From: Candidatus Altarchaeum sp.
GTDB lineage: Archaea > Altiarchaeota > Altiarchaeia > Altiarchaeales > Altiarchaeaceae
DNA: 18,505 bases
Reading direction: 5' to 3'
NCBI GenBank assembly: GCA_018260755.1
Contig: JAGTWP010000014.1
Coordinates: forward strand, 8,594 to 27,098
Part shown: positions 2,744 to 17,939 of the stretch, in pieces
How positions within the stretch are numbered: the first letter of the stretch is position 1
How the letters are laid out: each line of letters begins with the position of its first letter
The notes under the pieces: model-generated
Seen by the model: only the letters and a program-made list of their open reading frames with translations
Database searches by the model: none
What the model was told of the DNA's origin: nothing
Position numbers and translations under genes: made by a program

Positions 2744-4333
2744 ATGAAACTAAAATCCAAAATTCTAAACATTGAAGCGGGAAATTTTGTCGTTGTAATA
2801 CATGAGGAAGATGCAAAGGAAATGGGAATTTGCATTATAGACAGAGTAGAGGTTTATTCTGATAATTGCAAAAATAAGCTCAATGCAATTCCGAATTTTA
2901 CAAAAATTTATCTTAATAAAGGGGAAATCGGGATTTACGAAGAAGTAAGACAAATGTTAAATATCAATGATGGAGATATGGTTGATGTTTCGCTTTCTTC
3001 CCGTCCCGTATCGCTTGAATATATAAGAAAAAAAATTGACGGAATAAATTTGAGCGATGAAGAAATTAAAGCGATTGTAAGAGATATTGTGAATGGAAAT
3101 TTAAGTTCTGTTGAATTAGCAGGCTTTGTAATTGCTACTTATGTTCATGAAATGACGAGCAGTGAGATGATTTCTTTAATAAATGCGATGGTTGAAACGG
3201 GACAAAATATTGATTTCGGGGAAAATGTGGTTGATAAGCATAGTATCGGAGGTATCGCAGGAAACAGGACAACGATGCTTTTAGTTCCACTCATAGCGTC
3301 GGCAAATTTAAAAATTCCGAAAACATCATCACGGGCAATAACTTCGGCATCTGGAACAGCAGATACTATGGAGGTCCTGGCAAAGGTTGAATTTGATGTG
3401 GAAAAAATAAAAGATATTGTTGGGAAAACAAACGGGTGTATGGTTTGGGGAGGGGCGATAAATTTAGCACCTGCTGATGATAAAATAATAAAGGTGGAAT
3501 ATCCGCTTTCAATTGACCCGGATTCCCAGATGCTCGCGAGCGTCATGGCAAAAAAGAAAAGCGTTAATGCGAAGTATTTACTCGTTGATATTCCCGTCGG
3601 AAGGGGTGCAAAAATAAGCAACACCGAAAAAGGAAAAAAATTAGGCAATGAATTCATAAACATAGGAGCAAAATTAGGAATTAAGACAAGATGTCTAATA
3701 ACCGACGGATATTCTCCGGTTGGAAACGGAATAGGTCCCGCATTGGAAGCGAGAGATGTTTTAATAGCGCTTGATTATGAAAATTATAAAAACAAAACTG
3801 CTGAAAAAAATCACGGGAATTTTAAAATTCCTTATGATTTGATAAATAAATCCCTTGACATGGCTGCAAATATTTTTGAAATGGCATATCACCTCACTTC
3901 GTTCGGAGATTTTCAAAGCAAGTTTGAAAATAATAAAAAGGACGAATACAGAAAAACAGCAGAAGAAATTTTAAAGACAAGGGCATTAAAAAAGATGAGG
4001 GAAATTATTGAAGCGCAGGAGGGAAATCCGGAAATAAAGGCAGAAGATATAGTCATAGGGGAAAATTTTTATGATGTCCAAGCAAAATATACTGGTAAAG
4101 TAAAATTTATAAGTAACTGGAAAATTTCCCAGATTGCGAGAGCATCAGGAGCACCTTATGATAAAAAAGCCGGAATATATTTAAAAATTTCAGTAGGGGA
4201 CTTTGTAAGGAACAATGAATCATTATTCACAATTTATTCTTCCTCGGCTCACAAATTACAACACGCAATAGAGCTCGCAGAACGATTAAATCCGGTAGAA
4301 ATAGGGGGAGCGATAATTGAGAAAATTGAATAG
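2744..4333 (+). CDS. deoA: AMP phosphorylase with an in-frame palindromic-repeat insert
   Basis: This enzyme converts AMP (and CMP/UMP) plus phosphate to the free base and ribose 1,5-bisphosphate, the first step of the archaeal nucleotide degradation route that feeds type III RubisCO. Visible features are the archaeal N-terminal domain (1-84), KHSIGG (165-170), the TSSRAITSASGTADTMEVL phosphate/substrate region (194-212), DPDSQMLASVMAKK, and a C-terminal lipoyl-like barrel (about 437-529, GAPYDKKAGIYL). At 529 residues it is longer than the roughly 500 usual for archaeal homologues. The excess lies at residues 382-396 (YHLTSFGDFQSKFEN), exactly where the DNA matches the dispersed palindromic repeat at 571-613. 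The insert falls in a loop between a helix ending IFEMA and the helix AEEILKTRALKKM, away from the catalytic motifs, so the protein is probably active. The closest alternative family is thymidine phosphorylase, but the N-terminal domain argues for AMP phosphorylase. Confidence 0.9.
   Translation: MKLKSKILNIEAGNFVVVIHEEDAKEMGICIIDRVEVYSDNCKNKLNAIPNFTKIYLNKGEIGIYEEVRQMLNINDGDMVDVSLSSRPVSLEYIRKKIDGINLSDEEIKAIVRDIVNGNLSSVELAGFVIATYVHEMTSSEMISLINAMVETGQNIDFGENVVDKHSIGGIAGNRTTMLLVPLIASANLKIPKTSSRAITSASGTADTMEVLAKVEFDVEKIKDIVGKTNGCMVWGGAINLAPADDKIIKVEYPLSIDPDSQMLASVMAKKKSVNAKYLLVDIPVGRGAKISNTEKGKKLGNEFINIGAKLGIKTRCLITDGYSPVGNGIGPALEARDVLIALDYENYKNKTAEKNHGNFKIPYDLINKSLDMAANIFEMAYHLTSFGDFQSKFENNKKDEYRKTAEEILKTRALKKMREIIEAQEGNPEIKAEDIVIGENFYDVQAKYTGKVKFISNWKISQIARASGAPYDKKAGIYLKISVGDFVRNNESLFTIYSSSAHKLQHAIELAERLNPVEIGGAIIEKIE
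3887..3931 (+). repeat. Palindromic repeat copy inside the AMP phosphorylase gene
   Basis: The leader TATCACCTCACTTCGTTCGG is followed by GAG and a perfect 9-bp hairpin: ATTTTCAAA (3909-3917), loop GCAAG, TTTGAAAAT (3923-3931). It is read in frame as residues 382-396. The leader agrees with the intergenic copy at 571-596 at 23 of 26 positions. The hairpin arms match the intergenic copy at 4600-4621. Confidence 0.8.
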
Positions 4334-4655
4334 GACTGAACACACGCTCCGTTCGGAAATTTTAAAACATATCTTGAAATAATTTCACTTTGTTCAATTT
4401 TAAAATTTTACAGTAATCTCACGACATTAAAATTTTTCCCAACAATTTAATCATAGCAATAATCTTAATTACACTTTTTGTCTCTGCCTTTGTAATTTAG
4501 TACAAAAAATTCAAAAAATAAAATTTAAATAGTAACTATTCAGCCACTCAAAAAACTATGAGTAAATTTTTTGACTTTTTACGCTCACTTCGTTCGTGTA
4601 TTTTCAAACAAGTTTGAAAATCGCAGGTATTAAAAAATATTTGAATATTTTTGGT
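4334..4655. repeat. Intergenic region with palindromic repeats
   Basis: This gap holds a clear repeat copy at 4583-4621: leader CGCTCACTTCGTTCGTG, then a perfect 10-bp hairpin ATTTTCAAAC (4600-4609), loop AA, GTTTGAAAAT (4612-4621). A diverged copy lies at about 4346-4370 (CACGCTCCGTTCGG then AAATTTTAAAAC). The word GTAACTATTCAG at 4532-4543 recurs at 18350-18361. A further imperfect 12-bp hairpin (TATTAAAAAATAT / ATATTTTTAATA) spans about 4628-4670. No convincing gene was found in this stretch. Confidence 0.6.
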
Positions 4656-12070: not shown

Positions 12071-13240
<1,170 letters not shown>

Positions 13241-16425: not shown

Positions 16426-16470
16426 ATTTTCAAACTTGCTTTAAAATCTTTGAATGAAGTGGGGTTATCA
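16426..16470 (-). repeat. Dispersed palindromic repeat, reverse-orientation copy
   Basis: Read on the reverse strand, the leader TGATAACCCCACTTCATTCA leads into ATTTTAAA-GCAAG-TTTGAAAAT. This matches the copy inside the AMP phosphorylase gene, with the same loop GCAAG and one arm mismatch. It lies about 70 bp upstream of carB1. Confidence 0.6.
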
Positions 16471-16538: not shown

Positions 16539-17939
16539 ATGGAAAAGCCAAAAAATGTATTAATCATTGGTTCAGGTCCAATAGTAATCGGGCAGGCAGC
16601 GGAATTTGATTACAGTGGAACACAGGCATGCCTTACATTAAAAGAAGAAGGCATTAAGGTAATACTTATTAATCCGAATCCTGCCACAATAATGACCGAT
16701 ACAGATATTGCTGATCGCGTTTATATTGAACCGTTGACAGTTGAAATTTTGGAAAAGATTATTGAAAGAGAAAAGATAGACGGGATTTTGCCCACAATGG
16801 GCGGTCAGACAGGACTAAATATGGCTATGGGATTGCAGGATGCAGGAATTTTGGACAAGTATAATGTGAGGATTTTAGGGACACCTGTTGAAGCAATCAG
16901 AAACGGGGAAGACAGAGAAAAATTTGCTAATTTAATGAAAAATATCGGTGAAAAGATCCCCGCAAGTAAAGCGGTCTTATCTGTTGAAGGGGCAAAAAAT
17001 TTTGCAGAAGAAATTTCCTATCCAGTTATTGTAAGGCCCGGATTTACTCTCGGGGGAACAGGCGGAGGAATTGCACATAATGAAGAGGAACTTGAAGAAA
17101 TTGCCAAAAAAGGGCTTTATTATAGTTTAAATCATCAGGTTTTAATAGAAAAGAGTATATATGGGTGGTATGAATACGAATATGAAGTTGTCAGAGATAA
17201 TAAAGATAATTGCGTTATTATTTGTGGTATGGAAAATTTTGATCCCGTCGGGATTCATACTGGTGAGAGTATTGTTGTTGTACCTACACAAACATTAACC
17301 GATAATGATAACAGAGTCCTAAAAGAAGCATCCGTAAAGATAGTAAGGGCATTGGATATAAGAGGGGGATGTAATGTTCAGTTCGGAGTAAATCCCGAAA
17401 CGATGGAGCATATTGTTATTGAGGTAAATCCAAGAATGTCAAGGTCATCCGCATTAGCTTCAAAGGCGAGCGGTTATCCAATAGCGAGGGTTGCTACAAA
17501 AATTGCAATAGGAAAAAATTTAGATGAAATTCCGAATGCAATCACAAAAAAGACAATGGCATTCTTTGAGCCGGCACTTGATTATGTTGTTGTGAAAATT
17601 CCGAGATGGCCGTTTGATAAATTCAGGACTGCAAATAAACAAATCGGAACGCAGATGAAAAGCACGGGAGAGGTTATGGCAATTGGCAGAAATTTTGAAG
17701 AAGCATTTCAGAAAGCAATAAGAGGTCTGGATATAAAAAAATACGGGCTTGAAAATATAAGCAGCGATATTGACGAAATACGGAAAAATTTAATCGAGCC
17801 GACAGATGACAGGATGTTTTATATTTATAGTGCTTTTGAATTTATGAATGTTGATGAAATTTGCGAATTGACGAAGATAAGTAAATTTTTCATTGAAAAG
17901 ATGAAGCATATTTGGGAGTTAGAAAAGGAAGAAAGGTAA
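16539..17939 (+). CDS. carB1: Carbamoyl-phosphate synthase large chain, N-terminal half
   Basis: The CarB N-half makes carboxy-phosphate and carbamate from bicarbonate, ammonia (from CarA) and ATP, for pyrimidine and arginine synthesis. Visible are the preATP-grasp [20 protein letters not shown] (11-30), [20 protein letters not shown], the ATP-grasp glycine-rich loop [12 protein letters not shown], and [22 protein letters not shown]. Then comes [10 protein letters not shown] and the start of the oligomerisation domain (about 400-466). The ORF ends with a normal stop at residue 466, whereas whole CarB is about 1070 residues. The split falls where Methanocaldococcus-type carB1/carB2 genes are divided, so this is a genuine half gene, not a broken one. 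carB2 and carA are not adjacent. No Shine-Dalgarno is present. Confidence 0.93.

Follow-up and report, generated by a model that had tools for sequence, protein, structure and literature searches.

A short hairpin element, very probably mobile, inserted in frame in AMP phosphorylase and other protein genes of Candidatus Altiarchaeum

The window, as we call the whole stretch of 18,505 nucleotides analysed here, is part of contig C47 of an archaeal genome of 1.32 Mb in 78 contigs (G000). On its forward strand, positions 2744 to 4333 encode a protein of 529 amino acids that matches the AMP phosphorylase family TIGR03327 with 576 bits against a cut-off of 535. Among solved structures, the 4GA5 and 4GA4 chains are closest in sequence, and the AlphaFold2 model of the protein (mean pLDDT 89, with a well-predicted core) matches the AMP phosphorylase 4GA5 with TM-scores of 0.86/0.92. 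The nearest named relatives come from the Candidatus Altarchaeum (Altiarchaeum) MAGs HURL_140 and CG2_30_32_3053. A preliminary description of the locus had remarked that the protein is longer than the roughly 500 residues usual for AMP phosphorylases; TIGR03327 indeed has 500 positions.

The gene hosts a palindromic element of 42 nt on the forward strand at 3889-3930 (3890-3931 if an ambiguous T is shifted), inserted at GCATA^TAATA and read in frame as residues 383-396 (HLTSFGDFQSKFEN). The translated insert had been noticed before as residues 382-396, a numbering that is off by one. Its first 20 nt (3889-3908, TCACCTCACTTCGTTCGGAG) are the conserved head of a repeat family, and a 25-nt match to this family, CTCACTTCGTTCGGAGATTTTCAAA, spans 3893-3917. 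The rest is a palindromic tail, ATTTTCAAA-GCAAG-TTTGAAAAT (3909-3931), with a DNA fold of -6.2 kcal/mol (z -2.3). The common intergenic form with the same type of tail is 41 nt long and has the loop CAAG; the AMP phosphorylase copy is 42 nt because its loop, GCAAG, has one extra base.

The nearest orthologue, 93% identical, is in another Altiarchaeum genome (G003, JAGWDQ) and its site is cleanly empty. The window has GAAATGGCATA[TCACCTCACTTCGTTCGGAGATTTTCAAAGCAAGTTTGAAAA]TAATAAAAAG at this point and G003 GAAATGGCCTAC-AATAAAAAG, with the junction GCCTAC|AATAAAAAG. Deleting exactly 42 nt in silico gives EMAYNKKDEYRKTAEEIL, matching EMAYNKKGEYRKTAGEIL of G003, and leaves the frame open (EMAYNKKDEYRK, versus EMAYNKKGEYRK in G003) with the same EMAYNKK junction as in G003. 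Residues 383-396 are also missing from 21 further relatives at class and domain level, and the AMP phosphorylase of a third Altiarchaeum genome (G002) has no element but an unrelated (KDNN)n expansion at the insertion point. Since that expansion occurs there and the 21 more distant relatives have neither it nor the element, the site can be taken as a tolerant loop. Could the segment then be a native loop of a length-variable protein, with a coincidental likeness to intergenic repeats? The tolerance of the site would allow this, and one apparent coding copy elsewhere in the genome, in HypF, is truly native. Against it, the 25-nt identity over head and arm has no chance expectation, the tail completes a hairpin, and the exact empty site in G003 is one of fifteen such sites. 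We find a native loop scarcely credible.

In the AlphaFold2 model the insert lies in a loop that joins helices 364-382 and 395-412 and whose pLDDT stays under 50 over residues 385-396, in keeping with the surface loop that had been proposed. A second length-variable loop, in which no repeat was recognised, is found at residues ~346-360 (the TAEKNHG region); it is shorter in G003 and G002 and missing from other families. G003 also has, some 3 kb away from its intact gene, a broken, partial second AMP phosphorylase C-terminus with stop codons (G003:C79:19101-19627).

Searching the window with the head pattern (up to 3 mismatches) gave two matches, at 3893 and 4584, against an expectation of 0.00 from 200 shuffles. 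The second belongs to an intergenic copy on the forward strand at 4580-4620, with a head of the GTG type (TACGCTCACTTCGTTCGTGTATTTTCAAACAAGTTTGAAAA), which sits inside a larger MITE-like repeat; the left terminal repeat of the latter, GTAACTATTCAG, begins at ~4531. Three poorer copies accompany these two: a diverged intergenic one with a GGAG-type head (CTCGCTTTGCTCGGAGATTTAAAACAAAGTTTTAAA) at about 571-612 on the forward strand; a degenerate one with a weak hairpin score, also on the forward strand, just past the stop codon of the AMP phosphorylase gene (about 4343-4375); and a diverged inverted one on the reverse strand (16426-16461), upstream of an ORF at 16539 and found as inverted repeat I8, which is 81% complementary to 4586-4621. 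An Rfam search of the window returned no match. Elsewhere in the window, a 27-nt coding tandem repeat (12134-12241) lies near the N-terminus of a 386-aa ORF, which we took by eye for the RNA polymerase A'' subunit.

The MITE-like repeat is ~100-290 bp long and has perfect 12-bp terminal inverted repeats (GTAACTATTCAG...CTGAATAGTTAC). It occurs in the window (~4531-4640), at L007 1397-1640, L022 1398-1576, L253 3176-3276 and many more loci, often holds one or two GTG-head hairpin copies, and may account for contigs ending at repeats. The short element is distinct from it: a MITE has terminal inverted repeats and a target duplication of several bases, and the element has neither, with its hairpin on one side.

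Genome-wide, the pattern CACTTCGTTCGNNNATTTTCAAA (head plus arm) gave 93 matches and its reverse none, and the GGAG-type head gave 108 against one in the reversed control. The repeat noticed in the window is thus real and far above chance. Stretches around the matches were catalogued as 123 copies, only about one in ten of them inside genes. The copies share one anatomy, a conserved head of ~20 nt followed by a tail that is variable in sequence yet palindromic: 88% of 115 copies have a tail hairpin score of at least 8, compared with 2-22% at shifted positions, and the tails include 32 distinct arm sequences, too freely variable for sequence alignment. The length of the inserted unit, as given by alignment with empty sites, is 36-48 nt (12-16 amino acids). 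In two other Altiarchaeum genomes, tandem runs of the element form short ORFs made up mostly of TSLRSDISK or SLAFGYLQN peptide repeats (G001 L204, G002 L243).

The distribution of the head (up to 2 mismatches) was determined in four Altiarchaeum genomes, 65-87% complete, and in 25 other genomes of the class. The four Altiarchaeum genomes have 44, 131, 80 and 168 copies, with none in the reversed-pattern controls, and 24 of the 25 others have none. The one remaining, a 2.5-Mb, 74%-complete MAG outside Altiarchaeum (G026), has two copies, for which contamination and transfer are both possible. The exact head was not found in the viral contigs searched.

Are other genes interrupted in the same way? 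In G000, ORFs crossing a copy, within the stretches around repeat matches, were translated; counterparts of the host segments were looked for in the sister genomes and then aligned as DNA. Hosts were named from NCBIfam where listed and otherwise from our own reading of the sequence. Counting AMP phosphorylase, there are 15 insertion sites in 13 genes that have an empty counterpart in a sister; MAGs being assembled from populations, these filled/empty contrasts are between genomes. Two of the other hosts in G000, a DNA methyltransferase-like protein (42 nt) and class-I lysyl-tRNA synthetase LysS (39 nt), have empty sites in three sisters each. A CdhA-like CO-dehydrogenase subunit is interrupted at two places (by 42 and by 36 nt), and an unnamed protein of 164 aa and a secreted protein are interrupted once each, by 45 and 48 nt respectively. 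Three more hosts have the insertion near the N-terminus: a membrane protein (48 nt), an isopropylmalate/isocitrate dehydrogenase (39 nt), and TsaC, whose two tandem copies both lie in the opposite orientation. Glycogen debranching enzyme has two clean sites in different species, one in G001 and another in G002; an ASKHA-type protein is filled in G001 and an acetyl-CoA synthase (ACS) subunit in G002. Finally, NcsA has an insertion common to G001 and G002 and is empty in G000 and G003. The preliminary view of a mobile palindrome in frame, like the Rickettsia palindromic elements (RPEs), is thus upheld by the exact empty site and extends well beyond AMP phosphorylase.

Several candidates were kept out of this count. 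ORFs without orthologue support, among them an antisense ORF of 179 aa at C71:37584, were omitted, as were two gene-edge copies, one upstream of a start codon (C1:7339) and one at a C-terminal end (C6:1925). Two more G001 glycogen debranching sites and a G002 Bud32 site have ragged alignments. The HypF match (C68:8327) was rejected because its residues recur in the orthologues and it lacks a hairpin tail; it is native sequence and serves as a negative control. At C1:7339, comparison with G001 L188 shows that the end of the hairpin copy supplies an ATG start (AAAAATGGC), the sister gene having GTG. The CdhA-like ORF (910 aa, contig C27 of G000) contains a DNA-binding-like stretch (CSRQYIYNVLKK) between ferredoxin-like parts, which is also present in the sisters.

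Each of the 15 insertions has a length divisible by three, is in frame and brings in no in-frame stop; the host genes keep open frames and conserved cores. Among copies with a clear hairpin, six out of six coding ones are divisible by three, compared with 20 of the remaining 101. The stop-free frames used are xLTSFGDFQ and TSLRSDIS in the sense direction and KISERSEV in antisense. An element removed after transcription or translation, as an intron or intein is, would leave a protein without the insert. Archaea possess introns that fold into structures, and this hairpin could form in RNA. Removal, however, would not require the frame to be kept, yet it is kept at every one of the sites and mostly not in non-coding copies, and 12-16 amino acids is far below intein size. 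The lengths and stop-free frames, read from sequence, therefore argue for translation and against intron-like removal, which we judge very improbable.

If the inserts are translated, have they been taken into service, for example in regulation, in interactions or in control of the mRNA through the hairpin? The NcsA insertion has been kept in two species with most of its residues retained, and several hosts act in tRNA modification, C1 or energy metabolism. Recruitment is nevertheless unlikely, although less so than removal: the insertions vary in site and gene between species and are mostly confined to one, and they fall at termini or, in the AMP phosphorylase model, in a disordered loop. The NcsA insertion (G001 L259, G002 L254) is read in the antisense frame as FKSAK..NISEQS.V, ~16 aa; it is older and a possible phylogenetic marker.

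How does the element spread? Across sites the inserted unit starts with T-N-AC-CTC or nearly so and ends with AAA(A); a T follows the insertion and mostly an A precedes it, and the junction N^T is consistent in coding sites. Filled and empty copies of the larger MITE-like repeat with GTAACTATTCAG ends give the same boundary, and the aligned sites have no target duplication beyond one ambiguous T. The constant boundary hints that joining is a specific step. An alternative to be taken seriously does without a dedicated transposase: the element would spread by template switching, gene conversion or repair at hairpins, and its palindromic arms would be renewed as one arm templates the other. This would suit the 32 arm sequences, which stay palindromic, and the adjacent tandem copies. 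It would also suit the result for the Y1 transposase (Y1_Tnp, PF01797), which was not found in any of the four Altiarchaeum genomes (65-87% complete) whereas five of 14 control genomes were positive. The fixed head and the constant N^T at many unrelated sites point instead to an enzyme or a recognition step, and we hold spread without one to be possible, if on balance doubtful.

The AMP phosphorylase insert is very probably a copy of a mobile, non-autonomous DNA element restricted to the genus Altiarchaeum. Such an element would consist of the ~20-nt head (T-N-AC-CTCACTTCGTTCGGAG) and a short hairpin with variable arms, 36-48 nt in total. It would insert as DNA directly before a T, mostly between A and T, leave no target duplication longer than the ambiguous base, and spread chiefly between genes. 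A host or element enzyme would move the hairpin, perhaps as single-stranded DNA. Insertions in genes would be kept and translated if their length is divisible by three, they offer a stop-free frame and they fall in a loop that tolerates them or close to the N-terminus; these would be tolerated as 12-16 extra residues, and others presumably purged. In AMP phosphorylase the insertion would postdate the split from the closest known relative; the host protein would be made and active, and the insertion near-neutral. A bolder version, which we put forward as possible but less likely than not, is that an undescribed archaeal mechanism recognises the ~20-nt head of this 36-48 nt single-hairpin element and joins it at N^T. 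The element would still be diversifying Altiarchaeum protein loops, and the re-templating of its arms would yield new peptides from one mobile unit.

New protein segments are known to arise, though rarely, from palindromes that enter coding sequence in frame, and this has been studied mainly in Rickettsia and Wolbachia. RPEs (Ogata et al. 2000, 2002) are 105-146 bp long and lie in frame in many Rickettsia genes (PMC2229807, PMC10969869); one RPE host enzyme has been shown to be active (PMC2229807, PMC2996958, PMC10969869). The Altiarchaeum element would work like RPEs, by analogy: it is dispersed in many copies, forms a hairpin, lies between genes and in frame in many unrelated conserved genes with empty sites, and is non-autonomous, genus-restricted and tolerated. 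Compared by description, it differs in being archaeal, in having a non-palindromic conserved head with a variable hairpin, in using several frames and both strands, and in its 36-48 nt, well below the RPE range. REP elements, 20-40 bp palindromes with a tag at one end that are moved by RAYT transposases (PMC3733652), resemble it in size and in the layout of a one-end tag plus hairpin. Unlike it, however, REPs are extragenic and have a tetranucleotide tag, as against a head of ~20 nt, and no Y1/RAYT-type transposase was found in the four incomplete Altiarchaeum genomes. What moves a gene-less hairpin of 42 nt is a defined question.

Coding palindromic repeats are also known from Wolbachia (Ogata 2005) and from PARCEL, whose tandem surface-protein domains were absent from Archaea as then reported (PMC2996958); the Altiarchaeum copies are mostly single insertions in enzymes. 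The preliminary description knew of no archaeal precedent. There is one: coding palindromes (MJRE1-3) were reported in Methanocaldococcus jannaschii (Suyama, Lathe and Bork 2005, FEBS Lett 579:5281, as cited in PMC2229807 and PMC2996958). These too are described as archaeal palindromic repeats fused in frame into protein genes, but they belong to another lineage. The M. jannaschii study is said to have had no more than three coding copies and to have shown no empty sites in sister species. Literature searches, limited mostly to open papers, turned up no account of such elements in Altiarchaeum. The kind of element is thus already known; the genus-wide family, the short size, the anatomy of head plus variable hairpin and the filled/empty evidence look new. 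Altiarchaeum is a second archaeal lineage with such insertions, and its unit is much shorter. Across its sister genomes one and the same gene can be seen filled and empty, even where it is essential, as lysyl-tRNA synthetase is, and the cost of an insertion, its age, its reading-frame bias and any possible benefit are therefore directly measurable.
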